In this document: positions 6,850 to 32,054 of the stretch, piece after piece
How the letters are laid out: the number at the start of each line of letters is the position of its first letter
Numbering within the stretch: position 1 is the stretch's first letter
Source: Candidatus Aenigmatarchaeota archaeon
GTDB lineage: Archaea > Aenigmatarchaeota > Aenigmatarchaeia > GW2011-AR5 > JACRAC01
Length of the DNA stretch: 37,553 nt
Assembly (NCBI GenBank): GCA_016187395.1
Contig: JACPJV010000031.1
Coordinates: 1 to 37,553 of the forward strand
Direction: 5' to 3'
Notes under the pieces: model-generated
What the model was told of the DNA's origin: nothing
Database searches by the model: none
Seen by the model: only the letters and a program-made list of their open reading frames with translations
Translations under genes and position numbers: made by a program

Positions 6850-7648
6850 AAATATGAGCGCCTTATCTCATGATAAGGCATGATAGAGGTATGAGTGACG
6901 AATCGCAGGGACAATAATTAAACCAATAGTGCATAAACCCGCAAATTCTGGTTGATCCTGCCGGAGGTCACTGCTATCAGGGTTCGGCTTAGCCATGCGA
7001 GTCATTGTTGCAAGACAAGGCGTACTGCTCAGTAACACGTAGCTAACATGCCGTTTCGAGGGGGATAATCCCGGGAAACTGGGAATAATACACCATAGGC
7101 GAGGGATGCTGGAACTGCGCCCTTGCTGAAAGCCAGAGATGAATGGAGCGATGCAAAGCATCGCTCAAGTCGATTCTGGCACGAAACGATTGGGCTGCGG
7201 CGGATTAGGCTGTTGTTGAGGTAAAAGCCCAACAAACCGATAATCCGTACGGGTCATGAGAGTGATAGCCCGGAGATGGCTTCTGAGACATGAAGCCAGG
7301 CCTTACGAGGCGCAACAGGCGCGAAACCTTCCCAATGCGCGAAAGCGTGAGGAGGGAACCCTGAGTGATGCAGGTTTTCCTGCATCTTTTGCTTACTGCA
7401 AAATGCATTCCGGTGCTTCGCACCGGAGGTTTGTTTAGGTAGGCGAATAAGGGGTGGGCAAGACGGGTGCCAGCCGCCACGGTAATACCCGCGCCCCAAG
7501 TGGTGACCACGATTATTTGGCCTAAAGCACGCGTAGCCGGGCCGGCGGGTCTCTGGTGAAATCTGGCAGCGAACTGTCAGAATGGCCAGGGAAACTACCG
7601 GCCTAGGGACCGGGAGAGGTCTGGGGTACGTTGGAGGTAGGGGTAAAA

Positions 7649-7749
7649 CGAGCCTCTTTCTTTTATAAAAAGAAAGACCCTCGGGAGAAAGAAAACTTTG
7701 CGAGCTTTGCCCGCATGTTATTAATAGAACGGAAAGAAGGCTCTTACAT
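7649..7749 (+). other. ORF-less insertion (mini-intron candidate) in 16S at ~E. coli 695
   Basis: GGTAGGGGTAAAA | insertion | TCCTTTAATCTCCAACGG. Confidence 0.75.
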
Positions 7750-7857
7750 TCCTTTAATCTCCAACGGACCACCTGTGGCGAAGGCGCCAGACTAGAACGG
7801 ATCCGACGGTGAGGCGTGAAAGCTAGGGGAGCGATTGGGATTAGATAAGCTTTTTCT

Positions 7858-7954
7858 TTTAAGGGCGAATGGACGTTTTCCTGCAGGAAAACGTCAGTTT
7901 GTTCGCGAAAAACCTTGGAATAAGAAATATTGTATAAAGAAAAAGTTCTAAACA
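7858..7954 (+). other. ORF-less insertion (mini-intron candidate) in 16S at ~E. coli 787
   Basis: GGGATTAGATA | insertion | CCCCAGTAGTCCTAGCTGTAAACGATG. Confidence 0.85.
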
Positions 7955-8054
7955 CCCCAGTAGTCCTAGCTGTAAACGATGCCCGCTCGGTGTTGCAAGA
8001 CCTTAGGGGTTCTGTAGCGCCTCAGCGAAGGCGTTAAGCGGGCCGCCTGGGGAG

Positions 8055-8120
8055 AGAGAAGTCGCAGCGATAAGCTTTATACACTTCACTGTGTAAACCA
8101 TGTTGTGGCATTTCCCCGAA
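8055..8120 (+). other. ORF-less insertion in 16S at ~E. coli 888
   Basis: GCCGCCTGGGGAG | insertion | TACGATCGCAAGGTTGAAA. Confidence 0.75.
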
Positions 8121-8139
8121 TACGATCGCAAGGTTGAAA

Positions 8140-8959
8140 TCAGTGGTTTGAATGGATCAATTAGAATTGAAGAAACTAACCGCGGCTATGAACAAAGCAA
8201 TTAAGAAACAAAAGGTTGAGCGATTTATTGCTATGAAACCCGAGGCCGTACTTATCATAAGACTCTCTCTTGGATTGAGTCAACGTGAATTTGTTAAGCT
8301 ACTAAACGGCAAACTTTCGCAAGTTACACTTGTCAAGTATGAGAAAGGAAATGCAAATAAAATACAAGCACATATAGCCAAGAATGTAGCTTCTATTGCT
8401 CCTAAAAGATTAAAGGTAGATGCTGTTTTGCGAAATTATAAAAGATTTTCAATGATGCACAGAGGCTATATGCCTAGGGGAAGAGCCAGAAAATTGCAAG
8501 AACTTTCCCTTAAGAAAACAACTAAAATGCAAAGAAAGCTTTGGGGGCGTTTGGGAGCAATGAAGGCTAATGCAAAACAAAGGCCAACAGAGCAGGAAAT
8601 GCAAATACAAAATCTTCTGGAGAAATTGAAGATTTCATATACTACACACGAATTGATAGAATCTTCCGGTTTGAAATTTAACATAGATTTTGTAATTCGA
8701 AAGGGAAATCGCATTTGTTTTCTTGAAGTAAGCAAACGAAAACACGATATCTCAATACTTGCCCAAGCTTATGGATATAGATCCAGAGTTCTACGAGAGA
8801 CCTATCCCAGAGCGAAATTTGTAGCAATTTTTGATGAAATACCTTTAGGGCCTTCAGAAATACTTAATAAGGAATTTGATTTGATTTCAGATTCAAATTC
8901 TCTCAAAGTCGTGGAAGAGTTTCTTCTTTCTTTTTGATTCTCGAACTTCTGACAACTAA
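8140..8959 (+). mobile_element. Intron with endonuclease ORF in 16S at ~E. coli 908
   Basis: AAGGTTGAAA | 820 nt | CTTAAAGGAATTGGCGGGGGAGCAC; near the known archaeal 908 intron site. Confidence 0.85.
8152..8937 (+). CDS. Intron-encoded protein: HTH-like N-terminus plus PD-(D/E)XK-like nuclease domain
   Basis: LIIRLSLGLSQREFVKLL...LVKYEKG (XRE-like HTH); FNIDFVIRKGNRICFLEVSKRKHDI (D...ExxK pattern). Confidence 0.7.
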   Translation: MDQLELKKLTAAMNKAIKKQKVERFIAMKPEAVLIIRLSLGLSQREFVKLLNGKLSQVTLVKYEKGNANKIQAHIAKNVASIAPKRLKVDAVLRNYKRFSMMHRGYMPRGRARKLQELSLKKTTKMQRKLWGRLGAMKANAKQRPTEQEMQIQNLLEKLKISYTTHELIESSGLKFNIDFVIRKGNRICFLEVSKRKHDISILAQAYGYRSRVLRETYPRAKFVAIFDEIPLGPSEILNKEFDLISDSNSLKVVEEFLLSF

Positions 8960-9545
8960 CTTAAAGGAATTGGCGGGGGAGCACTACCAGGGGTGGAGGC
9001 TGTGGTTCAATTGGATTCAACGCCGGGAACCTCACCAGGGACTTGAAGAGAAATGGAATTTCTCTTAATTTTCCAACTCTTCGAGCTGGAAAAGACAGCA
9101 GAATGAGGGTCAGCCTGAAGGGCTTACCTGACAAGCTGAGAGGAGCTGCATGGCCGTCGTCAGCTCGTGGTGTGAACTGTCGTGTTAAGTCACGAAACGA
9201 GCGAGACCCACACTGCTATTTGCTACGTTTCTCTCCGGAGAAACAGCACTATAGCGGGACCGCTGGTGCTAAGGCGTATGAAGTTGCGAAGCAACTTTTT
9301 CGCAGCAAGACCAGAGGAAGGAGTGGTCGACGGCAGATGGAAGAAGTTTTTCTTCCAGCCGAAGTCTGTATGGCCCGAATTTCCTTGGGCTACACACGGC
9401 CTACAATGCGCAGGACAATGGGATGCAACACCGTAAGGTGAAGCCAACCTCTTAAACCTGCGCCTAGTTCGGATTGGGGGCTGCAACTCGCCCCCATGAA
9501 GCCGGAATCCCTAGTAAGCGAGGGTCATCATAACAGCAAGTTGAA

Positions 9546-9688
9546 TGATTGCTGGGCCAGTGCAAAAACAAACAGATGATGAAATATTAATGGCTTGACC
9601 AAGATGTTTGCAAGTGAATGGACGTTGCAGAGCAACGTCAGTTCGCGCTTTGCATATAGCAGCTCTATGATGGGCTTGCTGTTTGTGA
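9546..9688 (+). other. ORF-less insertion in the 3' domain of 16S (~E. coli 1345-1365)
   Basis: AAGCGAGGGTCATCATAACA | insertion | CTCGCTGAATACGTCCCTGCTCC. Confidence 0.6.
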
Positions 9689-9719
9689 AATCTCTCGCTG
9701 AATACGTCCCTGCTCCTTA

Positions 9720-9750
9720 AGCTGCCAGTTGCGTGCTGGCTGCTGGAGAA
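9720..9750 (+). other. Short insertion near 16S position 1391
   Basis: GTCCCTGCTCCTT | AAGCTGCC...GCTGGAGAA | GCACACACCGCCCGTC; known archaeal intron site 1391. Confidence 0.6.
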
Positions 9751-9965
9751 GCACACACCGCCCGTCAAGCCAATCGAGCGGGGTCTAGGTGAGGCTTGCG
9801 CTGAGCAAGTCGAGCCTGAACTCTGTAAGAGGGGCTAAGAGTGCGTTAGCAAAAGCTAGCGCTCTAGCAATCGTAACAAGGTAACCGTACGGGAACGTGC
9901 GGTTGGATCACCTCTTTTTTTATCTTCGGATAAAAATTGAAGGGGCGATTTGATTTCGCTATCTA

Positions 9966-10027
9966 AGCGAAGATGATAGAAATCGCCGTGTGTAAAACGC
10001 AAGACTGCGTTAAAACTCATACCTCTG
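9966..10027. repeat. Direct repeat copy A flanking MazEF
   Basis: GCGAAGATGATAGAAATCGCCGTGTGTAAAACGCAAGACTGCGTTAAAACTCATACCTCT, matching 10723-10783. Confidence 0.85.
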
Positions 10028-10064
10028 TTTTATTTTTTATTGACTCAGCACTAAGATCGCAAAT

Positions 10065-10418
10065 TCAGGGCTCTATTATTCCAAGACTGATTTTTATTGC
10101 CTCGTCTACCTCCTTCATTTTCTTTCTAGACAGCCTGCCGATTTTTCTGACGAGTCTTTTCGTGTCAACGGTTCTTATCTGGTTCAGCAAAATCGTGGAA
10201 TCTTCGCTCAATCCGGATTCTTCCTTGGGAACAAAGACATTTGTTGGGAATTCCTTTTCGAAAATCCTGGAAGTCATTGCGGCAACTATTGTAACAGGAC
10301 TGTATCTGTTCCCTATATCATTCTGTATAACAACAGCTGGCCTCGTCTTTCCCTGCTCAGAGCCGATTACAGGGTCCAGATTCACCAGAAATATATCGCC
10401 CCTCCTGATTTCCATCAA
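10065..10418 (-). CDS. MazF/PemK-family toxin
   Basis: MEIRRGDIFLVNLDPVIGSEQGKTRPAVVIQNDIGN... Confidence 0.95.
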   Translation of the reverse strand: MMEIRRGDIFLVNLDPVIGSEQGKTRPAVVIQNDIGNRYSPVTIVAAMTSRIFEKEFPTNVFVPKEESGLSEDSTILLNQIRTVDTKRLVRKIGRLSRKKMKEVDEAIKISLGIIEP

Positions 10419-10426
10419 AACGCCTG

Positions 10427-10627
10427 TTAACTGCGGTTTTCCAAATCAACAATTTCCCATTCCTTGGCTATTTCCACAGATTCCTTTGCCATTGCTATAT
10501 AGCCCTCTTCCAATAGTTTTGAAATGTTCCTTCGGCCATTTGTCCGGGAGCCCCCGAGCATTTCAAACTCTTCCTTCGACAGCAGCACGTACTCGCCCTT
10601 TTCTTTTATATGCAGTATTTCCGACAT
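10427..10627 (-). CDS. Cognate antitoxin of MazF-type toxin
   Basis: MSEILHIKEKGEYVLLSKEEFEML... directly upstream of the toxin in the same orientation. Confidence 0.75.
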   Translation of the reverse strand: MSEILHIKEKGEYVLLSKEEFEMLGGSRTNGRRNISKLLEEGYIAMAKESVEIAKEWEIVDLENRS

Positions 10628-10722
10628 GTTATCACAATTATCATAGCTCCCATCAATTATTAAAAGGCACAGTAGGCTTCTCAATGAAATATCATCTGAA
10701 AGGAAATAGAGATATTTGTCTT

Positions 10723-10783
10723 GGCGAAAGATGACAGAACGCCCGTGTGTAAAGCGCAAGACTGCGTTAAAACTCATGCCTCT
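10723..10783. repeat. Direct repeat copy B flanking MazEF
   Basis: GCGAAAGATGACAGAACGCCCGTGTGTAAAGCGCAAGACTGCGTTAAAACTCATGCCTCT. Confidence 0.85.
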
Positions 10784-10868
10784 ATCTGATTTTACTTATG
10801 AATTACTATATCCCATAGCGATCTACAAATCCCTATTTAAACATAGTGCAGAAATAATCAGGGTCTTT

Positions 10869-12451: not shown

Positions 12452-13081
12452 ATGAAACTCTCCTTCATCGGCTGCGGGAACATGGGCGGCGCGCTTGCGA
12501 GGCGCCTTGCAGGGGCAGGGCATGAAGTCATGGTTTCTGCGCGGCATGAAGACAAGGCAAAAGCGAAAGCAGAAGAATGCGGGAAGAATTCGAAGGCTGG
12601 CTCGGTGCCTGAGGCTGTGGCTTTTGGAGATGTAATTTTTCTCGCCGTTCCATACGGCGAAATATCATCTGCGATAAAAAGCGCGGGCGATTTGAAAGGC
12701 AAGGTGCTTGTGGACATAACAAATGCCCTGACTCCTGATTTTTCAGGCCTTGCTATAGGATTCACAGACAGCGCTGCAGAGCAGGTGGCTCGGCTTGCGC
12801 CTGTGGCGAAGGTGGTGAAGGCTTTCAATACGGTGTTTGCGCAGGTTGTTGCTAACCCGAAATTTGCAGAAGGAAAACCCTCGGCTTTTGTGGCTTCTGA
12901 CCATGCTGATGCGAAAGAAAAGGTGATGCGGCTTGCGTCCGATATAGGCTTTGAGTCGCTAGATGCAGGCCCGCTCAAGAATGCGCGACTGCTTGAGCCG
13001 CTCGGTATGATGAACATATTTTTAGGATATGTGCAGGGACTGGGTGCGGATAAAATTGCATTCAGGGTGATGAGGAGATAG
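12452..13081 (+). CDS. NADPH-dependent F420 reductase-like / NAD(P)-binding oxidoreductase
   Basis: MKLSFIGCGNMGGALARRLAGAGHEVMVSAR Rossmann; VKAFNTVFAQV...FVASDHADAKEKV. Confidence 0.85.
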   Translation: MKLSFIGCGNMGGALARRLAGAGHEVMVSARHEDKAKAKAEECGKNSKAGSVPEAVAFGDVIFLAVPYGEISSAIKSAGDLKGKVLVDITNALTPDFSGLAIGFTDSAAEQVARLAPVAKVVKAFNTVFAQVVANPKFAEGKPSAFVASDHADAKEKVMRLASDIGFESLDAGPLKNARLLEPLGMMNIFLGYVQGLGADKIAFRVMRR

Positions 13082-16043: not shown

Positions 16044-17132
16044 ACACGGTTGGGGCTTAGCAGGTCTTGGCTCGGCGCCACTTATTCTCCTTTTCGGTCT
16101 GCGGACACGAAAAGTAGATAAGGGCGCCTCGCCTAAGTAACAAACATGAAATCAAAAGATTTCATTGATAAATTCAGCAAAGCTGAATTAGAGAAATTCA
16201 AGGAAATAAAAGATAGAGCAATATTCAAAAAAGGAGAACAGAAGCGCTTCCTAAAAGAAGCCAAAGTTAAGCTTGGAATAAAATGGACTGAATTTGAAGA
16301 TCTGGTTTTGAAAGCCGGATATTCTGATGGAAGTCTCAGAAATTGGAGGTCTGAAACTTGTTCAATTCCACTATCAATTGTCCATCTGATTTCTTCAATT
16401 TCAGAAGTTAAAATGCCTGAAGCCGAGATTAGGCATGAGCAATGGGGGAGAATTAAGGGCGGCAAAGGTGCTTTAGAAAAGCTTGGCCTTAACGAACTTA
16501 GAAAACGAGCACAGAAAGGAAGAAAAGTAACTTTGGAAAAACACGGCTTGGATGCATTTCAGAAATTTGCTTCTTCAGGAGGTTCAAAAGCAAGTAAAAT
16601 GAAATTAGGAATTTTTGCGGATGCCAATAAAGAAAACGCCAAAGAATGGCGAAAGATTCCTTTCAAGGAGAAAATTGGCATATTCGATAAGAAATACGAC
16701 GGAGATAGAAATTCTTGGAGATTCAAAGGGTTTCTAAATAGCCCTAAAAGGAATGTACCAACGAAACTTGGAATAAAAGTTCGCTCTAAAGATGAAAAGA
16801 GAATCTTGGAGTTTCTCAGTGATAGTGGCTTTCAAGTGAATTACGAAAAATGCCAAGTGTTTGCAAAGGACAATCATATCGTACCTGATTTTGGATTTGC
16901 GGATAGACCGAAATTATTTGTCGAATATCTTGGCAGAAGCGATGATGCCTACTGGAAATATAAAATCCCACGTTGGCGTAATGTTTTGAAGAATTGCAAT
17001 GCGAAATTTATTATCATATCTTATGATTTAGAAAAGGCAAAGGCTGAATTTGACAAACTTTCAAATGTTATTGGAATTTTAAAATTCGGTCAATGGCGAG
17101 AGCTAAAAGACCTGCTTTCCAACTATGCCTGA
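16044..17132 (+). mobile_element. Intron/insertion with endonuclease ORF in 23S domain I
   Basis: GAAGCATCTTAGTAGGGGCAGGAA | insertion | GAAGAAAGCAATCGCGATGCGGCTAGTAAGGGCGA. Confidence 0.8.
16146..17132 (+). CDS. Intron-encoded PD-(D/E)XK-like endonuclease with Gly-rich repeats
   Basis: Repeats GGKGALEKLGLNELRKRAQKGRKVTLEKHGLDAFQKFASSGGSKAS; C-term IVPDFGFADRPKLFVEYLGRSDDAYWKYKIPRW...KFIIISYD. Confidence 0.7.
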   Translation: MKSKDFIDKFSKAELEKFKEIKDRAIFKKGEQKRFLKEAKVKLGIKWTEFEDLVLKAGYSDGSLRNWRSETCSIPLSIVHLISSISEVKMPEAEIRHEQWGRIKGGKGALEKLGLNELRKRAQKGRKVTLEKHGLDAFQKFASSGGSKASKMKLGIFADANKENAKEWRKIPFKEKIGIFDKKYDGDRNSWRFKGFLNSPKRNVPTKLGIKVRSKDEKRILEFLSDSGFQVNYEKCQVFAKDNHIVPDFGFADRPKLFVEYLGRSDDAYWKYKIPRWRNVLKNCNAKFIIISYDLEKAKAEFDKLSNVIGILKFGQWRELKDLLSNYA

Positions 17133-17599
17133 GAAGAAAGCAATCGCGATGCGGCTAGTAAGGGCGACTGAAAACCGCGTAGGACAAACCGAATCCTTTT
17201 GCGATGAGCAAGAGGAGATGTGGAGTTTGGACCAGGGTTCTGTCTAGTTTTCCTATCCGAAGTCTGCTGGAAAGCAGCGCGACAAAGGGTGATAGCCCCG
17301 TAGGGAAAAGGAAAGAAGTCAGATACCTGGTATCCAGAGTAGGGCTCCCTGAATAGGGAGTCTGAATACGGGGGTATCTACCTCTAATCCTAAACACTCA
17401 CCGAGTCCGATAGCGGATTAGTACCGCGAGAGAAAGCTGAAAAGTAGGGTTAACACCCGGTGAAAAGAATCTGAAACCAGGCAGCTATAGATAGCCGGCG
17501 AATGCCACGCGCAAGCGTGGAGTAAACCGGTGTCCGTTTTGAAAAACGGGGCAGGGAGTATATCTTCGTGGCGAGGCGAAAGCCGTAGCGAAAGGCGGA

Positions 17600-17995
17600 A
17601 CTGGGAATGCAAAATTTCACGGAAAACAGGCAAGATAATCCAAAACTTGTACAGACATTATAGTGTACTCACAGCGACAAGGTTAGGTTTATATGACCTG
17701 CTTTCCATGAAAAGAGAAAGGTGAAGTGATGGAAGAAGTCGGACACAACTTAACTAGAAACCTGAGACTAAGACCTTTGGACGCAAGACACGGAAATTTG
17801 GTTCCACTGGAGGGTTTGGATGAACTGAATGGAGGTTTTTTGTTTGCAGACCCCAATGGAATTGTCTATACACATAGAGGGGAAGGCTATACACCCATCG
17901 GAAAACTTCGTGAAGGACCTTATCCTTTACTCAGCTAGCCAGCTTTCTTTATTTTTCATTCTATTAATTATCCTAATTCTGCCCGCTAGAGCGAG
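17600..17995 (+). other. 23S insertion (helix 25 region) carrying a small ORF
   Basis: Lies between GGCGAAAGCCGTAGCGAAAGG and TTAGTCACGGGGATATGACCCGAAACTGGGTGATCTAG. Confidence 0.6.
17726..17938 (+). CDS. Small ORF nested in a 23S insertion, no recognisable nuclease motif
   Basis: 70 aa ORF MMEEVGHNLTRNLRLRPLDARHGNLVPLEGLDELNGG...; AGGTGAAGTG upstream and a TATA-like TTTATATG. Confidence 0.5.
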   Translation: MMEEVGHNLTRNLRLRPLDARHGNLVPLEGLDELNGGFLFADPNGIVYTHRGEGYTPIGKLREGPYPLLS

Positions 17996-18138
17996 TGTGA
18001 AAGCGCGTTAGTCACGGGGATATGACCCGAAACTGGGTGATCTAGGCCTGGGCAGGGTGAAGCGCCGCGAAAGCGGCGTGGAGGCCCGTTACCCATTATG
18101 GGACGACCCTTTGGGGTGACCTGGGTCTAGGGGTGAAA

Positions 18139-18475
18139 TTCGGGGAGGAGAAAAGAATACATGGGGATAAATAGATTTAGACAAATAATCTTTAGGGATT
18201 AATATGTCAGTAGCTGAACTTGCGTATGGAATAATTCCTTTTGCAGCAGGATTCGGCGGCATGGTATATGAATCCCGCCGAAGAGAAGAACTAGGGCTAC
18301 GTTTCAGAGACATGGTTCCAATCTTTGGATTTGGAACATGGACTCAACGCAATTTGGGCGAAATGAGATATCCATTTCGACGACTCCTTACTGAAATGAG
18401 TCTCTTAATTCCATATAATATTGCGGTTCTTTACGAAATTGATAAAATTTTTTAATCTTCTCCCTGAACACCAAA
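18139..18475 (+). other. 23S insertion (before GCCAATC) carrying a small ORF
   Basis: GGGGTGAAA | TTCGGGGAGGAGAA ... TTCTCCCTGAA | AAGCCAATCGAACCCAGTGATAGCTGG; complementary termini. Confidence 0.75.
18204..18455 (+). CDS. Small hydrophobic protein nested in a 23S insertion
   Basis: 83 aa MSVAELAYGIIPFAAGFGGMVYESRRREE...; upstream ATAAATAGATTTAG. Confidence 0.5.
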   Translation: MSVAELAYGIIPFAAGFGGMVYESRRREELGLRFRDMVPIFGFGTWTQRNLGEMRYPFRRLLTEMSLLIPYNIAVLYEIDKIF

Positions 18476-18980
18476 AGCCAATCGAACCCAGTGATAGCTG
18501 GTTCCTTCCGAAATGCATCTAAGTGCAGCCTTGCCTTTGGCTGCTGATGGGGTAGAGTTACTGATCAGAAGGCCAAGAGGGGAAACCCTCAGTTTTCTTG
18601 TCAAACTCCGAATCCATCAGCGCGCAGGCAGGAGTGAGGGCATCTGGAGTAATTTCGATGTCCGAAAGGGGAAAAACCCAGACTATGGTTAAGGTCCCGA
18701 AATGCTGGCTAAGTGTGATTGAAAGGAGTTTGGAATCTCAGACAGTGGGGATGTAGGCTTAGAAGCAGCCACCATCTAAGCAACGCGTAACAGCGGACCC
18801 ATCGAGATTCTGGGCCCTGAAAATGGACGGGGCTAAGCCAGCTGCCGATACCATAGATTTGCTGCAAATGCAGTAAGTGGTAGGAAGGCGTGCCGCGGGG
18901 GCAGAAGCATCCTTTTGAGAGGGTGTGGACCCTGCGGCAATGAGAATCCTGCTGGGAGTAGCATAGAGTAGGGCGAGAAA

Positions 18981-19270
18981 TGGTAGAAGAAGGAATAAAA
19001 GGATTGCGATGAAGTATCAATATGGATAGAGGAACGACATCCGGTCTCATTGTAGGAGGGATAGGGTTATTTGCTGGTTTAGTCACGGTAAACAAAATGT
19101 CCTATGATTGGACACGTGATGAAATTGTAGCAAGAAGAAACAAAGGGCAAAGTGATGAAGATATAAGGGGGTTATTCGGTAAAAATCCAAGGTTTTCTCT
19201 TTTTATAACGTATCCAGGATACAAACTCGCAAGATATGTTTATGGTATCTAATCTTCTTCTTCCACTCAA
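18981..19270 (+). other. 23S insertion in a hairpin loop carrying a small ORF
   Basis: GTAGGGCGAGAAA | TGGTAGAAGAAGG...CTTCTTCTTCCACTCAA | TTCCCTACCACC; complementary termini. Confidence 0.75.
19022..19252 (+). CDS. Small membrane-type protein nested in a 23S insertion
   Basis: 76 aa MDRGTTSGLIVGGIGLFAGLVTVNKMSYDWTRDEIV... Confidence 0.5.
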   Translation: MDRGTTSGLIVGGIGLFAGLVTVNKMSYDWTRDEIVARRNKGQSDEDIRGLFGKNPRFSLFITYPGYKLARYVYGI

Positions 19271-19659
19271 TTCCCTACCACCTGAAAGAGCTTAGTCTAG
19301 GCTAGGCTCTGGGGATGGGGCAAGGGTTTCCACTTAAAGTTTATCTGAGTGGAGTTAGCCGGTCCTAACTGCAACTCTAACTGGGCTTGCGGGAAAGGGA
19401 AGCAGGTTAATATTCCTGTGCCAGTCTGCATTCGTCGAAGCTGTGCAAAACACCGCGGGATAGCCTGAGCGCGGCCGTCGCTGCGTTCAAGCGTTGAAGC
19501 AGGGGGAGCGCCGTCATGGCGAGAACCTTGCGAATGCGTGAGTAGGCTGCCGTATGGTAGCTTCAGGCAAATCCTGGGGTCCGTGAAAATTGTGCAGTGG
19601 AGGATGCAGATTGTCCGTACCAATAACCGACAGTCAGGTTGGTGAAAGGAATTTAAGGA

Positions 19660-19960
19660 TTTCGGGCAAATAAATGTTGTGATAAAATGTCTGTAGAGAA
19701 AGTGCGATTTGTTTTGCTTGAAGAAGACCTACATGGAGCAAGTATTGTGGGCACTGGAATGGAAGGGAGAGCAATACGATATCGCGGCCCGCGAGGTCAA
19801 GTAAGGCAAGTCTATGCTAACGACATAGAAGGCGCAGGATATTCGACAGTTCCAAAAACAATCAAGTTGGTAACAGATGTTGCCCAAAATCCAAACAGAA
19901 AGCCTGTAAGAGATTGGGCTTAATTAATTCTATCACCAGCCCGGCCGGGAAACAGGTGCC
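19660..19960 (+). other. 23S insertion carrying a small ORF
   Basis: CGGGC...GTGATA ... TATCACCAGCCCG complementary termini around the ORF; rRNA resumes before CGGGATAATCCAGCCTAGGGAAATCGGCAAG. Confidence 0.65.
19687..19923 (+). CDS. Small soluble protein nested in a 23S insertion
   Basis: 78 aa MSVEKVRFVLLEEDLHGASIVGTGMEGRAIRYRGPRGQVRQVYANDIEG... Confidence 0.5.
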   Translation: MSVEKVRFVLLEEDLHGASIVGTGMEGRAIRYRGPRGQVRQVYANDIEGAGYSTVPKTIKLVTDVAQNPNRKPVRDWA

Positions 19961-20012
19961 CCTCGCCGAGAAGGCGAAGGTGTTCGGGATAATCCAGCCT
20001 AGGGAAATCGGC

Positions 20013-20120
20013 AAGAGCTCCTTTTCTTTGTAAAGAAAAGTAGCTCGCAGTCAAAAGAAACATTGCGGACTTCGTTCGCATGTCATTTTGTATTTGCGAA
20101 AAGGAGTTCCCGAAAAACTA
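20013..20120 (+). other. ORF-less 23S insertion (mini-intron candidate)
   Basis: AAATCGGCAAG | AGCTCCTTTTCTTTG...AAAAGGAGTTCC | ...GGCGTATCTTCGG. Confidence 0.65.
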
Positions 20121-20472
20121 GCGGCGTATCTTCGGTACAAGCCGTGCCTGCTCAGCGATGAGCAGGTCGCAGTGACAAGGGAGATCGGACTGTTTAACAA
20201 ACGGAGAGACGGGCTTTTGATTTTGGAAAGCGCGCAAGTCCGACGTTTTCATCATCTCATCTCTTCGGTTGAGAAACACAGCCGAGTGCTAAGTGAAAAC
20301 GCTTTGTATACTCGGTGAGTCGTGGCCACTAGCGGTGTGTGAAAGCTCATTTCAATGGGCCTATGCCCCGCTGTAGGCCGGCGGTAACTCTGACCGTCTT
20401 AATCGAGATGGTCGTAACAGTCAGCAGAAAAATGGTCACCTCGAAGACAGAGGTAGCGTAATCCCTTGCCAG

Positions 20473-20605
20473 TTAAATAAGCCTTTTTTTCTTGTAAGGG
20501 CGAATGGACGTTTTCCGCAGGAAAACGTCAGTTTGTCCGCAAAAAGACCCTTGGGAGAAAAAGAACTATGCGCCCTTCGGTCGCATAATATCAAGAAGAG
20601 GCTGT
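20473..20605 (+). other. ORF-less 23S insertion at ~E. coli 1951 (mini-intron candidate)
   Basis: CCCTTGCCAGTTAAATA | AGCCTTTTTTTCTTG...GAAGAGGCT | GTAACAGCTGGCCTGCATGA. Confidence 0.75.
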
Positions 20606-20967
20606 AACAGCTGGCCTGCATGATAGACTAACTAGATCTTCGCTGTCCCGGGCTGGAACCCGGCGAAACTATCTTTCCAGTGATTAGTCTGGAGACCTCC
20701 GGTGGGAAGAGTAGACCCCGTGGATGAGGGCAAGCAATATGCTTCCCTCAGCGGTTAGCTTTACTACAGCCTGTTGTTGTGGTGTGAATGGGACTGTAAA
20801 GTGTAGGCAGGAGGCGTCGAAGCTGCGGCGCAAGCTGCAGCTGAGCCACCAAGGACGCGACACATCTTCGATGCGTCGGTCGGTGACTGTGACACTGCCC
20901 TGTTTTGTTCACACTGCTTACGCCCTGGCAACAGGGTGGACAGCATCAGGTGGGTAGTTTGGCTGGG

Positions 20968-21659
20968 AGTCTATAGAGGAGCTAACTTGAGAGAGATTTC
21001 AGAGGGATAAAACCAACGAGATCCAGAAAGCGTTTGACACAGCTCCTTCCAGAAACGAAAACAGCTTTGTCAGAACTCCTGCTAGGTATTTCTAGAAGTT
21101 CCAGACATTGTGAAATCTGTTTCCTTAGCAAAGGATGATAGCATGTCAATTCGACTCGTATTATGCCATATCTTTTGCTTTGGTAGAGTGAGCCATCACC
21201 AGAAGCGTAACCCTTAAGAAAGGAGGCTGCAAAGTCTTTGTTGCCTAGAATTTTTTCAGGAACCCTACAGGCAGGAAATTTCTTGGATTTCCAAATAAAA
21301 TGCTCGTGCCAACGGCATTCGGTACTTTTTGGAAAGTTATCGCATGCTTTGGTTCTGAATGAAGGAGAATAAGAGTGCAAGATTTCTGCAATTCGCAATG
21401 AAAAGGTTCGTATGGAGAACGCATTTTTGCATTTGACTTTATGAAATCTCACGTCTCCAAAACATTCGGTCATCAACTCTTTAAAGAGGTCGAGCAAGAT
21501 TTCATTTTTGTTCGTGAATTGAACACAATACGTTCTTTTGGAACGATCAAAATAAACGGATCCATCTGAAATAAGGAGACCGAGTAACAAAGATAATTTT
21601 TCGTCCATAATCATTTATGGAATCTCTCAATGAAAAGGTTTATCCTCTTGGACCAGCAA
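20968..21659. mobile_element. Homing-endonuclease intron in the 23S P-loop (~E. coli 2252)
   Basis: GGTGGGTAGTTTGGCTGGG | insertion | GCGGTACTCCCCTGA; termini pair (GAGAGATT/AATCTCTC). Confidence 0.85.
20982..21614 (-). CDS. LAGLIDADG homing endonuclease, antisense to the rRNA
   Basis: Two motifs LLLGLLISDGSV and SFLKGYASGDGSL. Confidence 0.92.
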   Translation of the reverse strand: MIMDEKLSLLLGLLISDGSVYFDRSKRTYCVQFTNKNEILLDLFKELMTECFGDVRFHKVKCKNAFSIRTFSLRIAEILHSYSPSFRTKACDNFPKSTECRWHEHFIWKSKKFPACRVPEKILGNKDFAASFLKGYASGDGSLYQSKRYGIIRVELTCYHPLLRKQISQCLELLEIPSRSSDKAVFVSGRSCVKRFLDLVGFIPLKSLSS

Positions 21660-21766
21660 GCGGTACTCCCCTGAAATGATATTGAGCGCGGCTCAGTATA
21701 TCGTTTCGCTACGCTCAACGATATATCAGGGGACCTCAAAGTCCGGCTCCGAGCGGTCAGAAACTG

Positions 21767-22283
21767 CAGAAGGAATTTAAGATTTAATAGCCAGTAAAAA
21801 GAATGAGCAGAGAATCAGCTGCGCCGATAACAGCGGAAACGGAAAGGCTTCTGTCTACATACCCTGAACATTCCAGGTACATCAAAAGAATGTACAATCT
21901 TGATTCGAGAGAAGGGAGTGTAGACTTTGTTTTTTCTGTGCCTAGAAAAGGCCGCGGAGAATACGTGTCAAGTGAAAAATTCCTTACGTGTTCAAATCAA
22001 GCAGCGTATGCCCTCACCGAGTTGCTAATAAGGAATGGCCATCCAATAACAACCCTCCTTACCCTGGAACTCTATGAAAAGGCCAAGGAAGCATTGGAAC
22101 TAAGTTTTCACAAGGCAGTTCTCTGGGAAATAAGGAGGCATACAAAATGGGATGAAGAATTTGCCATCTCTGCGAGATTGAAGCGGTTTAGGCGCAGGGG
22201 AGACAAGGGAGTCATTTGGATAGAATTTGACGGCGATTGCAGAGGCTCTATATTCTACTATGTTGCATTTCCTTCCAGCAGCT
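21767..22283 (+). other. 23S insertion (domain V) carrying a 160-aa ORF
   Basis: GAGCGGTCAGAAA CTGCAGAAGGAA ... TTTCCTTCCAGCAG ctgaacat CGCTCTAAGAGTG; complementary termini. Confidence 0.75.
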
Positions 22284-22285
22284 GA
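21803..22285 (+). CDS. 160-aa protein nested in a 23S insertion, no recognised domain
   Basis: Long ORF MSRESAAPITAETERLLSTYPEHSRYIKRMYNLDSREGSVDFVFSVPRKG... Confidence 0.7.
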   Translation: MSRESAAPITAETERLLSTYPEHSRYIKRMYNLDSREGSVDFVFSVPRKGRGEYVSSEKFLTCSNQAAYALTELLIRNGHPITTLLTLELYEKAKEALELSFHKAVLWEIRRHTKWDEEFAISARLKRFRRRGDKGVIWIEFDGDCRGSIFYYVAFPSSS

Positions 22286-22423
22286 ACATCGCTCTAAGAG
22301 TGTAAGCGCAAAAGCCGGATTGATTGGATTCCGCTCAGCGTGGAATCCAAAGGTGAAAGCCTGAGCTAGCGATACACAGGTACCTCTAGATGGGGGCCTG
22401 TGACCTGAGAAAATCGGAATGTT

Positions 22424-23294
22424 CCACGGGGTTCAGCAAAACTTTAAATTCCAAAGAATACAACTAACAGTATGTTGAAAAACAAGTTACTCCAGAGATT
22501 AAGAAGAGACGGGACAATGCGGGTAGAGCTTGCAGACAGCGCTGTAAATAAAATTACAGCGAACACAAACAACCTAAGAAAATGGAAGAGATTAAATTCA
22601 TTTCCATTGCAGTTTATTTACAAAGAATACAAAGAACTTCTGCCCTCTATAACACATGTAAAATCAGGAACTGGTAGAAGCTTTTCAAGAGTGAAGATTC
22701 CAGAAAACTTGACGGAAGAGCTTGCATACATTCTTGGTGCAATGAGAGACGGTTCTTTGATAAATGTCAGCAGAAAACATTGGGTGCGTTTGTATGATTC
22801 TGCAGAGTCAAAATGGATTGAAAACGTATTACCATTGTTTCAGAAAACATTTGAGGTGAAACTACATTTAAGGTATCAGAAACAAATAAGCGAGAAGTAT
22901 CTGGACATTTCATCGAAGCCTTTGTTTTCAATGATAACTTTACTTGTAGATGGAAAACTTCACAAGGATGTCCCATCAATAATAAAGAAAGCAAATACAA
23001 AAATCAAAATTGCCTATATAGCTGGGTTTTTTGATGCAGAAGGCTCTGTTCCATCACCTAACGTCAAAAATAAGCGATTTAGAATATCGTTCAGCCAAAA
23101 AAACAGTGCATCATTGAACTTCATCAGATCAACATTAGAATCTCTTGGAATAAGACCATCAAAGGTATCTCATTATTCCTTTGACATCTATGGTCAAGAA
23201 AAGATAAGAAAGTTTCATACTAATTTTAATTTGCTGAACCCTAAGAAGTCCGCGCGTCTTGGACTTCTTTTAAAATGAATATTCCGGTCTCAAG
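22424..23294 (+). mobile_element. Homing-endonuclease intron just upstream of the 23S PTC loop
   Basis: GACCTGAGAAA | CGGAATGTTCC ... GAATATTCCG | AAGCTACCCCGGGGATA. Confidence 0.8.
22472..23278 (+). CDS. LAGLIDADG homing endonuclease
   Basis: ELAYILGAMRDGSL and IAYIAGFFDAEGSV motifs. Confidence 0.95.
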   Translation: MLKNKLLQRLRRDGTMRVELADSAVNKITANTNNLRKWKRLNSFPLQFIYKEYKELLPSITHVKSGTGRSFSRVKIPENLTEELAYILGAMRDGSLINVSRKHWVRLYDSAESKWIENVLPLFQKTFEVKLHLRYQKQISEKYLDISSKPLFSMITLLVDGKLHKDVPSIIKKANTKIKIAYIAGFFDAEGSVPSPNVKNKRFRISFSQKNSASLNFIRSTLESLGIRPSKVSHYSFDIYGQEKIRKFHTNFNLLNPKKSARLGLLLK

Positions 23295-23311
23295 AAGCTA
23301 CCCCGGGGATA

Positions 23312-23344
23312 GTTCTGCTAGCGTTGAGTAGCGGAACCTCTAAA
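23312..23344 (+). other. 33-nt hairpin insertion within the PTC sequence GGGGATA^A
   Basis: CCCCGGGGATA | GTTCTGCTAGCGTTGAGTAGCGGAACCTCTAAA | ATGGTGTCGTGGCGGGTGAGAGTTCA. Confidence 0.65.
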
Positions 23345-23370
23345 ATGGTGTCGTGGCGGGTGAGAGTTCA

Positions 23371-23441
23371 TTGAGCTTTTTCTTTTCAAAAAGAAAAACC
23401 TCGGAAAAAGAAAACCTTATAATTTGAAAGAACTCGAACAA
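23371..23441 (+). other. ORF-less 23S insertion (~E. coli 2476; mini-intron candidate)
   Basis: GAGAGTTCA | TTGAGCTTTTTCTTTT...AACTCGAACAA | ATCGACCCC. Confidence 0.75.
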
Positions 23442-23501
23442 ATCGACCCCGCGCGTTGCGGCGTCGCTGTCGGCTGGTCTTCACCTGGCTGTGCAGTAAG
23501 C

Positions 23502-23855
23502 TGCGGACATGACATCCGGGTAAATGGGTCCTCTTCCTACCTTTTCCTACGGTGACGATTCCCGTCCCAGATTGATGCGAAGGCAAAAAACATTGCTACG
23601 CAATGTCATACGCCTCTGCAGATGACAAGATTGGGTAGCTTCCGAGTAGGTTATTCTTCAGTCGCTGGATAATGCGAAGCAAACATTTGCTTCAAATATA
23701 GTGCACAAGAAAAAATCATTACAATCCTTTCTTGTTAGCACTATATTGCTATCTTGCTCTGTTTAGCACAAGGTAGGTGTGAGACTCGAACTGGATTTTG
23801 ATCAAACCTTTCAAGAGGTTTGAGATGAGAAGCAACTTGTCCGTTGCCTGAATGC
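23502..23855 (+). other. ORF-less ~350-nt 23S insertion in domain V
   Basis: Region between CTGTGCAGTAAGC and GCCAAGGGTACTGGGG; contains a TATAGTGC hairpin. Confidence 0.5.
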
Positions 23856-23979
23856 AGCCAAGGGTACTGGGGTCTACAGGTTAAAAAGGCACCTTAGCTG
23901 GGTTCAGAACGGCGTGAGCCAGTTTGGTCTATATCTGCCGGAGGTGCTTCGGCCTGAGAGGAAGGAGGGGTAAGTACGA

Positions 23980-24010
23980 AATGTGCTTACGCTTTGTAAA
24001 CACACGTAAA
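23980..24010 (+). other. ~30-nt insertion in the sarcin-ricin loop
   Basis: GGAGGGGTAAGTACGA | AATGTGCTTACGCTTTGTAAACACACGTAAA | AGGAACATCCCTTC. Confidence 0.7.
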
Positions 24011-24232
24011 AGGAACATCCCTTCGTGGCCTCTGGTGTACCGGTTGTCTGACAAACGTATGAGGAGAATGCAAAAACCTCTTTGCGGTCAATGGCATTGC
24101 CGGGCAGCTACGCCATAGCGGATAAGCCCTGAAGGCATCTAAGGGCAAAGCCATCCTCGAAAATAGGCCGCTGGCACGTGCAAGACGACGCGTTCATGAA
24201 AGCGGGGTGTAAGATTCGAGCTTCGGCGAGAA

Positions 24233-24320
24233 TTTCAGCCTGCGCTTTCCACGCCTATGCTAGCCTTCAATATGCAAAAGTTGCGACTTTTGCTTCCGCG
24301 CAAGCGGCTCCGGACCTGGG
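24233..24320. repeat. 23S 3' end, repeat copy 1
   Basis: TTTCAGCCTGCGCTTTCCACGCCTATGCTAGCCTTCAATA + hairpin + CTCCGGACCTGGG. Confidence 0.9.
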
Positions 24321-24368: not shown

Positions 24369-24587
24369 ATGAGGATAATTTATACCGATCATGCCAGAGA
24401 GAGGTTAGAAGGAAGAATAATCAGGAAAGAATGGGTTGAAGAAACTCTGAAGAATCCAGACAGATTAATCGATGCAGAATATGGCAGAAAACAAGCCATC
24501 AAAAGAATAAACGGCCAGGAAATAAGCGTTATATATGTTATGGAGAATGATAATATCATCGTTATAACGGTATTTTGGGGTGAATGA
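24369..24587 (+). CDS. DUF4258-family (RelE-like) putative toxin
   Basis: MRIIYTDHARERLEGRIIRKEWVEETLKNPDRLIDAEYGRKQAIKRINGQEISVIYVMENDNIIVITVFWGE. Confidence 0.85.
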   Translation: MRIIYTDHARERLEGRIIRKEWVEETLKNPDRLIDAEYGRKQAIKRINGQEISVIYVMENDNIIVITVFWGE

Positions 24588-24588
24588 A

Positions 24589-24717
24589 ATGGAAATTAAG
24601 TTGGATTTAAAGGCTGATGCATTATACATCAAGTTCCAGGAAGGAAAGTTTGCTAAAAATAAAAGAATTGATAAAGACACGGTTATAGATATGGATGCTA
24701 AAGATCGAGATGCTTAA
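24589..24717 (+). CDS. DUF2283-family putative antitoxin, apparently frameshifted
   Basis: MEIKLDLKADALYIKFQEGKFAKNKRIDKDTVIDMDAK...; the +1 frame continues IEMLNVTKKVPIEDLSDVSVKLPLKASS. Confidence 0.7.
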   Translation: MEIKLDLKADALYIKFQEGKFAKNKRIDKDTVIDMDAKDRDA

Positions 24718-24803
24718 CGTGACCAAAAAAGTTCCTATAGAAGACCTGTCAGATGTGAGTGTAAAATTGCCTTTGAAGGCGTCTTCGTAAGGAGTTCTGG
24801 GTG

Positions 24804-24899
24804 TTTCAGCCTGCGCTTTCCACGCCTATGCTAGCCTTCAATACGTAAAAGCTGCGGCTTTTACGTCTCCGAAAGGAGCTCCGGACCTGCGGAAATTCG
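24804..24899. repeat. Duplicated 23S 3' end, repeat copy 2
   Basis: TTTCAGCCTGCGCTTTCCACGCCTATGCTAGCCTTCAATA identical to copy 1; then hairpin + CTCCGGACCTGCGGAAATTC. Confidence 0.9.
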
Positions 24900-24951: not shown

Positions 24952-25383
24952 ATGAGCTCGATAGCTGACCACAAAAGGCGGATAAAGGAGCATCTGGAAG
25001 AGCTGCAGGATGCCCTGAATGTAGGACTGGAGAAAAGGCCTGCGTCCGTAGGGTTTCATGCCTCTGCCTGTGCATGCGAGATTCTCGAGATGTACATGCA
25101 TCTGGCTAATCTCATTTCCACGGGGAAGAAGGTCAACCACATATGGTTCAAGCGACCCAAGGAAGAGCAGAAGATAGAGCCACTCATCGAAAGGAAAATG
25201 CCTGTCAGCTTTCCAGGCAAGGAGGACGTCTATGAGCTTATCTACACTATAGAGGACCACAGGGACAACCTCATATACGGCAAGCCTGCGAAGGGCGAGG
25301 TGGAGATTGTTTTCAGGGCATTCCAGAGGCTGAAGGCAATTCTTGAAAGCAAAATTGCGGAAAGGGGTGATAGCATTGAATAG
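24952..25383 (+). CDS. HEPN-like protein (putative toxin of HEPN-MNT pair)
   Basis: All-helical 143 aa ORF overlapping the nucleotidyltransferase start; DHRDNLIYG region. Confidence 0.65.
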   Translation: MSSIADHKRRIKEHLEELQDALNVGLEKRPASVGFHASACACEILEMYMHLANLISTGKKVNHIWFKRPKEEQKIEPLIERKMPVSFPGKEDVYELIYTIEDHRDNLIYGKPAKGEVEIVFRAFQRLKAILESKIAERGDSIE

Positions 25384-25984
25384 GAACCTTATGCTCTCCT
25401 ACACCCAGGCGTTTGCGAGCTTCCTGTTCAGAACTCCCGGCATAAAGGCAGATAAAATAAAATCCATATTTGTCTTCGGCTCTGTTGCACGCGGAGATTT
25501 TGACAAGGAAAGCGATGTGGATATCTTTATTCATACAGAAAAGGCAAATGAAAAGGAAATAACGAAGCACGCGAAAATTGCTCTTGCAAAATTTTACCGC
25601 TCTGATGAGTACGAGAAATTCCGCATACTCGGCATAATAAACCCCATAAGCATAAAATGCGGCGATGTGGGAAAATGGCAGCTGTTTAATTCGATAAAAC
25701 ATGAAGGAATTGTCATCTATTCATCTTCAATATCGCCATTTTTCAGCAAGCATTTCCTTGTGGAAGTAAAGCCGATAAGTGATATAGCCAAAAGAAACAA
25801 AATAATCAGAAAGCTTGCCGGGAGAAAAGAGAAAGGCAGAAAGGAAAGAGGCGCGATAGAGCTTATGGGCGGCTCTGTTCTTGATTCGAGGCACTACATC
25901 ATTCCTGCAGAAAGGCTGACTGAAATAACGAAAATCTTCTCCAAGGAAAAGGTATTCTACGAACTCAGGGAGGTGTGGATGTGA
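25376..25984 (+). CDS. Minimal nucleotidyltransferase (MNT-type, putative antitoxin)
   Basis: IFVFGSVARGDFDKESDVDIFIHTE = GSxxRGxxxxxSDxD; TTG start overlapping the upstream stop. Confidence 0.85.
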   Translation: MNRNLMLSYTQAFASFLFRTPGIKADKIKSIFVFGSVARGDFDKESDVDIFIHTEKANEKEITKHAKIALAKFYRSDEYEKFRILGIINPISIKCGDVGKWQLFNSIKHEGIVIYSSSISPFFSKHFLVEVKPISDIAKRNKIIRKLAGRKEKGRKERGAIELMGGSVLDSRHYIIPAERLTEITKIFSKEKVFYELREVWM

Positions 25985-29650: not shown

Positions 29651-29800
29651 TTCCTTTCTATATCAGACTTCAGATAAGAAGCTTTTGCATACATTATCGT
29701 CCTACCAGGGGCTCTGGCTGGCGAGAGTTTCCCAGTTCATATTGACATCATAATATCAAAACTATTCAAAGTTTTGTTATCCGGATATCAGATTTTTCTA

Positions 29801-29822
29801 CATAAGCTCCCCGCTGCCTGAG
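29801..29822. repeat. Direct repeat copy A flanking VapBC
   Basis: CATAAGCTCCCCGCTGCCTGAG, identical to 30527-30548. Confidence 0.9.
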
Positions 29823-29885
29823 AGGATGAGGCATGCGGCGATATATATTTATATACTTATTCTACTTAGTATACAAAGTGGTAAA

Positions 29886-30125
29886 ATGTACAAGACAGTG
29901 AAGTTGGATGAGAAAACCTATAAAAAATTGAACAGGGTTGCAGGGCTTCTGCGCTCGAAGGAGCATAAGCCTGTGTCGCTGAATGAGGCCATGAGCATAG
30001 TCCTGTCCAGATCCGAGGAGCTTGACATGGAAGACTTTGCCGGAAGCTGGGACATGACAGACGAGGAAGCGGCTGAAATGGAAAAGGATATAACGAGGCA
30101 CTGGAGAACATGGAAACCAAAGTAG
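29886..30125 (+). CDS. VapB-type antitoxin
   Basis: MYKTVKLDEKTYKKLNRVAGLLRSKEHKPVSLNEAMSIVL; overlaps the PIN gene. Confidence 0.85.
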   Translation: MYKTVKLDEKTYKKLNRVAGLLRSKEHKPVSLNEAMSIVLSRSEELDMEDFAGSWDMTDEEAAEMEKDITRHWRTWKPK

Positions 30126-30514
30126 TTCTGGACACGAATGTAATCGTGGATTTTCTAAGAAACAAATCTGAAATAATCAGGAGAATCCATGAAATGAGGC
30201 TGGATGGAGTTACGTTTGGTACAACCCATATAAACGTTTTCGAACTTTTTCATGGAGCATACAAAAGCAGCCATACCGAAAAGAATCTGTCTGCAGTAAA
30301 GGGATTTCTGAAATCAGTATTCCTTCTTGGAACAACCCCCGAGAGCATGGAGATTGCAGCCAAGATGCTGGCTGAGCTGGAAAGGAAGGGCTTGCCCATA
30401 GAAATGAGGGACATCCTCATCGCATCTATATGTCTTGTGAGTTCATTTGCAATTATGACAAAAAACGTCTCTCATTTCGAAAGAATACCGGGATTAGAAA
30501 TTATAAAATTATGA
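30110..30514 (+). CDS. VapC PIN-domain toxin
   Basis: VVLDTNVIVDFLRN...FELFHGAY...IEMRDILIASI.. Confidence 0.93.
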   Translation: METKVVLDTNVIVDFLRNKSEIIRRIHEMRLDGVTFGTTHINVFELFHGAYKSSHTEKNLSAVKGFLKSVFLLGTTPESMEIAAKMLAELERKGLPIEMRDILIASICLVSSFAIMTKNVSHFERIPGLEIIKL

Positions 30515-30523
30515 TTACTGACA

Positions 30524-31183
30524 TTACATAAGCTCCCCGCTGCCTGAGCGGGTAAGCCAGATGGTGCAGTCTAGTTCTGCTGTGGTCATGCCTAACGCCT
30601 TAGCCAGGCCTGCGAATTTTGCCTCTGCCTGCAAATATGCATTCTTTGAGAGGCCGCCGTTTGCCTGATTCATGATTCCAAGTTCCTGCATCTCGCGGAG
30701 GATGTGGACATCTAATATTGCCAATTCGTCGCCCAGGCCGATGTTGCGCAAAAAGTGAGAGGCTTCCTTGAAGCCAAAGCCCATGACATTCTCAGCCAGC
30801 CATTCCCTCAATTCTCGCGGCTGACGCTGAAGCTCAAGGATTTTCCGGTAGATTTCATCAAAGTGCTCCCTGGCCATTATTATATAGTCGCTTTTCTTGT
30901 CATTGAACCGCACTGGTTGCATGTAGTTCAATAACTGCTGCTTTGTGCCGATCCAGAGCAAGCCATCATCTTTCATTCTTAATACGGCATCCCTGCAGTA
31001 TACGGCTTTAGACTGCGGCGTGCACAGGCAAAAAACAAGCTCGAAGAAGACCTTTTCCAGGTCCAGGTGCAAATCACGCACGCGCTGGAAGAAATCATCG
31101 ATAAGATAGCGGTGCTTGGACAGATTCTCTTTCAGCTTTTGATGCTGCTCTGTTTCGATGAATTCTGCGATGGCGGAGTCCAT
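30524..31183 (-). CDS. N-glycosylase/DNA lyase (Ogg2-like)
   Basis: FELVFCLCTPQSKAVYCRDAV...LAENVMGFGFKEASHFLRNIGLGDELAILDVHILREM. Confidence 0.9.
   Translation of the reverse strand: MDSAIAEFIETEQHQKLKENLSKHRYLIDDFFQRVRDLHLDLEKVFFELVFCLCTPQSKAVYCRDAVLRMKDDGLLWIGTKQQLLNYMQPVRFNDKKSDYIIMAREHFDEIYRKILELQRQPRELREWLAENVMGFGFKEASHFLRNIGLGDELAILDVHILREMQELGIMNQANGGLSKNAYLQAEAKFAGLAKALGMTTAELDCTIWLTRSGSGELM
30527..30548. repeat. Direct repeat copy B (3' end of the Ogg2-like gene)
   Basis: CATAAGCTCCCCGCTGCCTGAG. Confidence 0.9.
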
Positions 31184-31383
31184 GACAGCTAATATGCAAG
31201 GAAGGGATTAAAAGAAATCAGGCATTTTCCCACGCTTCGTCTTCCTTACTATCCCAAAGCTCTTTCATTTTTGGCTTTTGCGCCACGCGAAGGAATTTAT
31301 TGAACATGACGATCCCAAAAGTCTTAATAATAAGTAATACAAAAGTATAAATATCTAGTTATACTATTATGCAAGGTGATTGG

Positions 31384-31659
31384 ATGGTGAAAATAACGGA
31401 AGAGATGAAGATAGGCCCGAAAGGACAGGTTGTTATACCGAAGATTTTCAGGAAGGCGATGGGGTTTCATCCCGGCTCTACAGTGGTCTTCGAACTGGAG
31501 GACCATAAGCTTCTGATTGAGAAGCCTGCTGTTGAGGCAGATAAAATCTTTGAGAGCATAGCCAAGTCCATTAATTTTAAGGGAAAAATTGACCCTCATG
31601 AGGCTTACGAAGAGGAGATGGAACACAGATGGAAAAAAGCCGAGAGGGGTAAGAAATGA
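31384..31659 (+). CDS. AbrB/MazE-fold antitoxin
   Basis: MKIGPKGQVVIPKIFRKAMGFHPGSTVVFELEDHKLLIEK. Confidence 0.92.
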   Translation: MVKITEEMKIGPKGQVVIPKIFRKAMGFHPGSTVVFELEDHKLLIEKPAVEADKIFESIAKSINFKGKIDPHEAYEEEMEHRWKKAERGKK

Positions 31660-32054
31660 TTTATCTGGATTCCAATGTGTTTATAACAGCGACCATAAAA
31701 TCCGATGAAAGGGGACAGAAGTGCAGGGAACTGATCAGGGATATAGCAACAGGAGAAACAAAGGCAGCCAGCTCGGCCCTGACTTTTGACGAGATTTTCT
31801 GGAGGGTCAAAAAGGAAGGCGGGTTTGACATGGCTCTTATTGCTGCCAGAACATTTCTGGAGATGCCGAATCTCGTCATAATCGAAACCAACGAAACTAT
31901 TCTTCTGGAGGCATACAACCTGATAAAGAATTACAAGTTAGATCCGCGGGATGCTATTCACGCCGCTTCTGCCATAGTCCATGGGATTTTTACTATAATT
32001 TCAGACGACCCTGATTTTGACAGGATAAAGGAAATGAACAGGAAGAGGATATGA
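31656..32054 (+). CDS. VapC PIN-domain toxin
   Basis: MIYLDSNVFITATIKSDERG...LDPRDAIHAASAI...IISDDPDFDRI. Confidence 0.93.
   Translation: MIYLDSNVFITATIKSDERGQKCRELIRDIATGETKAASSALTFDEIFWRVKKEGGFDMALIAARTFLEMPNLVIIETNETILLEAYNLIKNYKLDPRDAIHAASAIVHGIFTIISDDPDFDRIKEMNRKRI

Follow-up and report, generated by a model that had tools for sequence, protein, structure and literature searches.

A vapBC pair behind an archaeal ogg gene may be one of a set of toxin–antitoxin cassettes inserted at gene 3′ ends without a transposase

In a Candidatus Aenigmatarchaeota genome, a vapBC toxin–antitoxin (TA) pair lies between two copies of the 3′ end of the neighbouring ogg gene, and on the evidence of sequence comparison we lean towards reading it as a TA cassette inserted behind ogg, one of a set that would have entered gene 3′ ends by homology-guided, transposase-free insertion. 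The pattern points to a possible transposase-free spread of such pairs via recombination at gene ends, and bears on an old question, namely the means by which solitary chromosomal TA pairs pass from genome to genome with no visible mobile element. Here, one genome carries several unrelated TA types whose insertion scars are still readable, and relatives show both empty and filled states. The scars explain how TA genes can settle behind essential genes, even those for rRNA or tRNA, without breaking them; a short-homology crossover at gene ends is made directly testable as the mode of entry, and its signature can be searched for elsewhere. The stretch of DNA analysed (hereafter the window; 37,553 nucleotides of contig JACPJV010000031.1) is archaeal, with Rfam archaeal SSU and LSU rRNA genes that are both greatly lengthened. 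Its assembly (G000) comprises 982 kb in 42 contigs and is 79.6% complete.

The first-pass annotation had placed two 22-bp copies of the ogg 3′ end at 29801 and 30527, with the VapBC pair between them. Sequence, Pfam and repeat comparison bear this out, and the full exact match is 24 nt long (TACATAAGCTCCCCGCTGCCTGAG; copies 726 bp apart), with likeness continuing to 35 nt at 89% (Table 1). The right-hand, proximal copy is the end of the ogg coding sequence, running through ...RSGSGELM into the stop codon, while the left-hand, distal copy reads LILSGSGELM on the minus strand, followed by TAG where ogg has TAA. Nothing but the VapBC operon and its TATA-like leader lies between them, with gaps of about 10 bp after vapC and about 50–60 bp, including the TATA-like stretch, before vapB. 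The vapC product contains a PIN domain (Pfam E 2.1e-8), its nearest PDB chains are VapC tRNA(fMet) endonucleases (E 5.6e-16), and the small upstream vapB overlaps it; no Pfam antitoxin family was found in vapB. VapC is a putative toxin that VapB would neutralise, and the role of addiction is presumed. A third copy of the 24-mer with at most three mismatches was found neither in the window (0 expected from 100 shuffles) nor in the 982-kb assembly (0 in the reversed-pattern control). The whole-assembly search thereby excludes that the 24-mer stems from a REP-like repeat or from a motif common across the genome, the latter being what the first-pass annotation had named as speaking against its reading. 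On the other side of ogg, a second antitoxin–PIN pair, with a MazE-like antitoxin (Pfam), occupies 31369–32054 without flanking repeats.

Table 1. Features of the three repeat-bracketed TA sites in the window.
Feature	Position	Strand	Evidence or remark
16S 3′ trailer (processing-stem strand), proximal copy	9970–10036	+	Repeat comparison
MazF/PemK toxin	10065–10418	−	Pfam PemK_toxin, E 2.3e-37
ORF with probable MazE antitoxin, true start inside	10427–10777	−	No Pfam hit
16S trailer, distal copy	10728–10793	+	Repeat comparison
23S rRNA 3′ end and downstream hairpins, proximal copy	24233–24318	+	Repeat comparison
DUF4258 toxin-like gene	24369–24587	+	Pfam DUF4258, E 3.5e-13
DUF2283-like antitoxin reading frame, apparently frameshifted	24580–24790	+	ORFs 24580–24717 and 24695–24790; family by eye
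23S 3′ end, distal copy	24804–24889	+	Repeat comparison
Distal (detached) ogg 3′-end copy	29799–29833	−	24 nt exact (29799–29822), then 11 nt with 4 differences
AT-rich TATA-like stretch before vapB, putative promoter	29843–29858	+	Sequence
vapB antitoxin, 79 aa	29886–30125	+	No Pfam hit; assigned from position and vapC overlap
vapC toxin, PIN domain, intact	30110–30514	+	Pfam PIN; PDB VapC matches
ogg, Ogg-HhH DNA glycosylase, intact host gene	30524–31183	−	Pfam Ogg-HhH, E 2.6e-46
Proximal copy, the true ogg 3′ end	30525–30548	−	Sequence and repeat search

Repeat comparison also upholds the earlier claim that a MazEF pair and the modules at the 23S rRNA end are bracketed in the same manner. 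The two 23S-end copies are identical over 40 nt and then differ, over 46 nt, by compensatory hairpin changes (86 nt, 87% overall). Between them, the DUF2283-like antitoxin is split across two frames, by either a frameshift or a sequencing error. Immediately after the distal 23S-end copy comes a putative HEPN/nucleotidyltransferase pair (24952–25984), the first protein of which is identical at 47 of 136 positions to that of the pair at the scpA site described below; beyond this pair, no third copy of the 23S end was found. The rRNA gene spans themselves (SSU 6945–9916, 3.0 kb; LSU 16897–24269, 7.4 kb) go far beyond model lengths and hold several ORFs, some of them LAGLIDADG-like by eye, so that both genes appear to carry introns or insertions.

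The same anatomy recurs elsewhere in the genome. We scanned 392 kb (the window and six further contigs) for direct repeats 300–2500 bp apart, counting pairs with a score of at least 20 as strong, and obtained 20 strong pairs; two control ranges of distance gave 8 and 1. Several of the 20 are repeated protein domains, tandem paralogues or a diversity-generating retroelement (DGR), and most of the remainder enclose TA-like gene pairs. An intact gene, a TA pair and a detached 3′-end fragment stand in this order at six sites, with five TA types. In all firm cases the intact gene lies on one side and its own detached 3′-end fragment (for the rRNAs, an end-region fragment) on the other, these second copies being about 24–90 nt long. 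Among the sites are an LSM gene with VapBC (24-nt core), scpA with a putative HEPN–MNT pair, consisting of a nucleotidyltransferase and its presumed HEPN partner (46 of 46 nt exact, stop codon included), and a flavin oxidoreductase gene with DUF5678 and an aspartyl protease (39 of 41 nt, 95%); the scpA and oxidoreductase copies have sharp ends. Key identities are backed by Pfam, and those of the HEPN partner, the DUF2283-like antitoxin and VapB come from position and inspection by eye.

Random placement would rarely put PIN genes inside the kept repeat pairs as often as was seen (n = 3, P = 0.004). PIN-domain genes are numerous here, 23 in 0.98 Mb compared to 6 and 9 in two genomes of the same family, and 20 of the 23 have no clear flanking repeat, which counts against our main explanation; older scars may have eroded. 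A further VapBC pair (L052, on contig C31) was kept off the firm list as ambiguous, since its repeats come from a repetitive gene family that contains a dispersed hairpin repeat. An 81-nt, 94% repeat on contig C25 (copies at 18714 and 19029, extent 18714–19109) was set aside as different in kind: it is a promoter/5′-end duplication, with TATA box and start codon, around a 66-aa ORF, and forms a 5′-end counterpart of the pattern. We consider an assembly artefact unlikely, given that the same anatomy occurs in the two-contig assembly of G016, a genome of the same order, and that most repeats are short.

Comparison with other genomes, of the same family or order at nearest and some from the wider class, gives the direction of change at two sites. 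The scpA gene abuts scpB in G002 and G010, and in this genome the two are separated by the TA pair, by the scpA fragment and by an additional gene. As this additional gene (contig C34, 33373–34059) sits between the scpA fragment and scpB, the junction took a second insertion. Likewise, no TA genes follow the 3′ end of the TFB-side gene (a convergent HTH gene beside TFB) in G017, G018, G022 and G024. In G014 it is followed by UPF0175–DUF3368 and in G016 by HTH, GNAT and peptidase genes, bracketed in each by a 31-nt copy of its end. Gene order thus shows the polarity at scpA and at the TFB-side gene to be insertion. The empty sites anticipated by the first-pass annotation are therefore present at scpA–scpB and at the TFB-side gene but not, in the strict sense, at ogg: in the nearest genomes (same family, 45–49% identity) ogg has unrelated genes downstream and no vapBC, and a search of genome contigs with the Ogg protein found no close relatives. 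The missing ogg empty site counts against our main explanation.

Repeats of equal extent around different cargo in two genera could mark a site-specific boundary at the TFB-side gene, which would tell against our main explanation. In other genomes the TFB–HTH interval contains MazEF or VapBC-like pairs without a detectable repeat. The interval (L165–L174; G016:C2:119400–123300) is a hot spot, containing VapBC, MazEF, UPF0175–DUF3368 or PIN with an AbrB-like antitoxin according to genome. Since the TFB-side gene carries such varied cassettes, some sites are used repeatedly. G016 also has a PIN gene, a VapBC pair and an AbiEii-like pair bracketed likewise, the last (assigned by eye, no Pfam hit) by 33 exact nt of the 3′ end of a tRNA-Thr. 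As the HTH–GNAT–peptidase case demonstrates, TA genes make up most of the cargo but not all of it. The habit is not general, as the G050 sample held no bracketed cassettes and the G004 (same order) and G017 samples no bracketed TA cassettes, although in G017 a single bracketed cassette carried a NUDIX gene in place of TA genes. We dismissed a 23-nt repeat downstream of the G002 flavin oxidoreductase gene, since one of its copies lies inside another gene.

The detached fragments carry information on how the cassettes may have arrived. The LSM fragment differs from the resident gene at 1 of 24 positions inside the core and at 19 of 42 ungapped positions outside it, mostly at third codon positions if a one-base shift is allowed, and it is about as far from the LSM of G001. 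At the G016 PIN site, a fragment of about 170 nt encodes the same protein end in clearly diverged form, and its core matches at 24 of 25 positions. At ogg, the oxidoreductase gene and the TFB-side gene, the two copies end in different stop codons. Near-identical cores in diverged surroundings, stop codons of their own and the compensatory changes in the 23S-end hairpins make the fragments look like homologous gene ends from other lineages that meet the resident gene in a short stretch of identity. Where this can be judged from the sequences, several distal fragments are diverged homologues and not simple target-site duplications. The scpA copies are fully identical, as simple duplication would give; they do not discriminate and count against our main explanation.

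We propose that incoming DNA would carry a TA operon adjoining the 3′ end of a homologous gene, and that the cassette would be added by crossing over within a short stretch of identity (about 24–46 nt) at the end of the resident gene. The resident gene would stay intact, one homologous 3′-end fragment would be left beyond the TA genes, and addiction would oppose loss of the cassette through recombination between the repeats. Short homology would pick the site, with no need for a dedicated transposase or integrase. We infer both the crossover step and the form of the incoming DNA, either a small circle entering by a single crossover or a linear fragment. Such addition of a TA-bearing molecule by short-homology recombination would account for the mosaic copies, the cores poor in shared motifs and inverted repeats, the lack of a tyrosine recombinase in this assembly and the varied cargo.

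Tyrosine-integrase elements that enter tRNA or other gene 3′ ends keep the gene intact with one att copy and leave the second at their far end, and the sites described here likewise combine an intact gene with a far-end copy. The repeats might therefore be attL/attR scars, left by larger elements eroded to their addiction genes or by minimal TA cassettes on which an integrase worked in trans. The tRNA-Thr case and the equal 31-nt repeats with different cargo behind one gene in two genera fit such scars, as does targeting of gene 3′ ends as a whole, and yet we regard this origin as unlikely. No tyrosine recombinase (PF00589) was detected in G000 or G017, although one may have been missed in G000, given its 42 contigs and 79.6% completeness, and no integrase gene lies in or near the cassettes. 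The cargo is mostly a TA pair alone; there are no leftover element genes, and in most cases just 0–30 bp follow the final TA gene. Nine cores share next to nothing (only one 6-mer is common to three of them) and show no excess of inverted repeats, and in the LSM and G016 cases homology reaches upstream of the core.

Less likely still is homology-facilitated illegitimate recombination of linear foreign DNA, in which one side would recombine homologously within the gene or upstream of it and the other would be end-joined inside the final codons of the resident gene, turning the resident 3′ end into the distal fragment. The process is described in bacteria, according to the account in PMC3240628, and it would accommodate the diverged fragments and the absent machinery; it leaves unexplained the near-identical core inside diverged surroundings and the regularity of the junctions.

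Integron gene cassettes are compact, comprise one operon and carry a recombination site beside the last gene, with attC structure and IntI. The cassettes here are also compact, one-operon units, perhaps sometimes in series, as at the 23S end; unlike integron cassettes, they have a putative promoter of their own, target ordinary gene ends and show neither attC structure nor IntI. We give little credence to a dedicated, undescribed route of this integron-like kind, by which TA operons would enter gene 3′ ends as cassettes with a defined boundary, possibly serially, without integrase genes in the host assembly.

The closest known parallel is the insertion of restriction–modification genes with long target duplication (Nobusato et al. 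2000, summarised in PMC3874152 and PMC3031569); the direct repeats of the six sites in this genome measure 24–86 nt. As those summaries present it, that system also involves an addiction-type pair, no transposase, long direct repeats of variable length (on the order of 100 bp) and evidence from genome comparison; the present cases differ in being archaeal TA cassettes, in lying always at gene 3′ ends (protein, rRNA, tRNA) and in that several fragments are diverged homologues, not plain duplications. Simple long target-site duplication, with a staggered break filled on both sides and a distal copy free to decay, suits the sharp ends at scpA, where the copies do duplicate the target, and at the oxidoreductase gene, but is very improbable overall, and unlikely for the diverged LSM, 23S and G016 PIN sites in particular, because the second copy should start identical and decay at random, which the different yet proper stop codons, the mostly third-position changes, the compensatory hairpin changes and the diverged 170-nt fragment all contradict.

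In Microcystis, a single ParDE-like TA operon lies downstream of a gene with an identical 152-bp direct repeat on either side (PMC7935541), which makes it a partial parallel. Its repeats, in contrast, are intergenic, contain inverted repeats, do not derive from the neighbour's coding 3′ end and occur at a single locus. No report of TA cassettes with gene-3′-end fragments in archaea was found in the literature searched, which included few subscription papers; this is weak evidence of novelty.

Two other kinds of repeat were seen in the scanned DNA. A probable DGR (G000:C6:118670–120475; also L048 87–557) adjoins the LSM/VapBC insertion; it comprises a reverse transcriptase ORF (119318–120475) and a repeat pair at 118670 and 119191, with five mismatches in a 41-nt core and A in the same copy each time. 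A dispersed hairpin repeat, consisting of GGCGAATGGAC, a palindrome and GTCAGTTTGC, has seven copies in the 392 kb, at 7864 and 20499 in the window, at 12607, 30635, 31421 and 67493 on contig C31 and at 106381 on contig C6; two of the seven lie inside the 16S and 23S rRNA gene spans.
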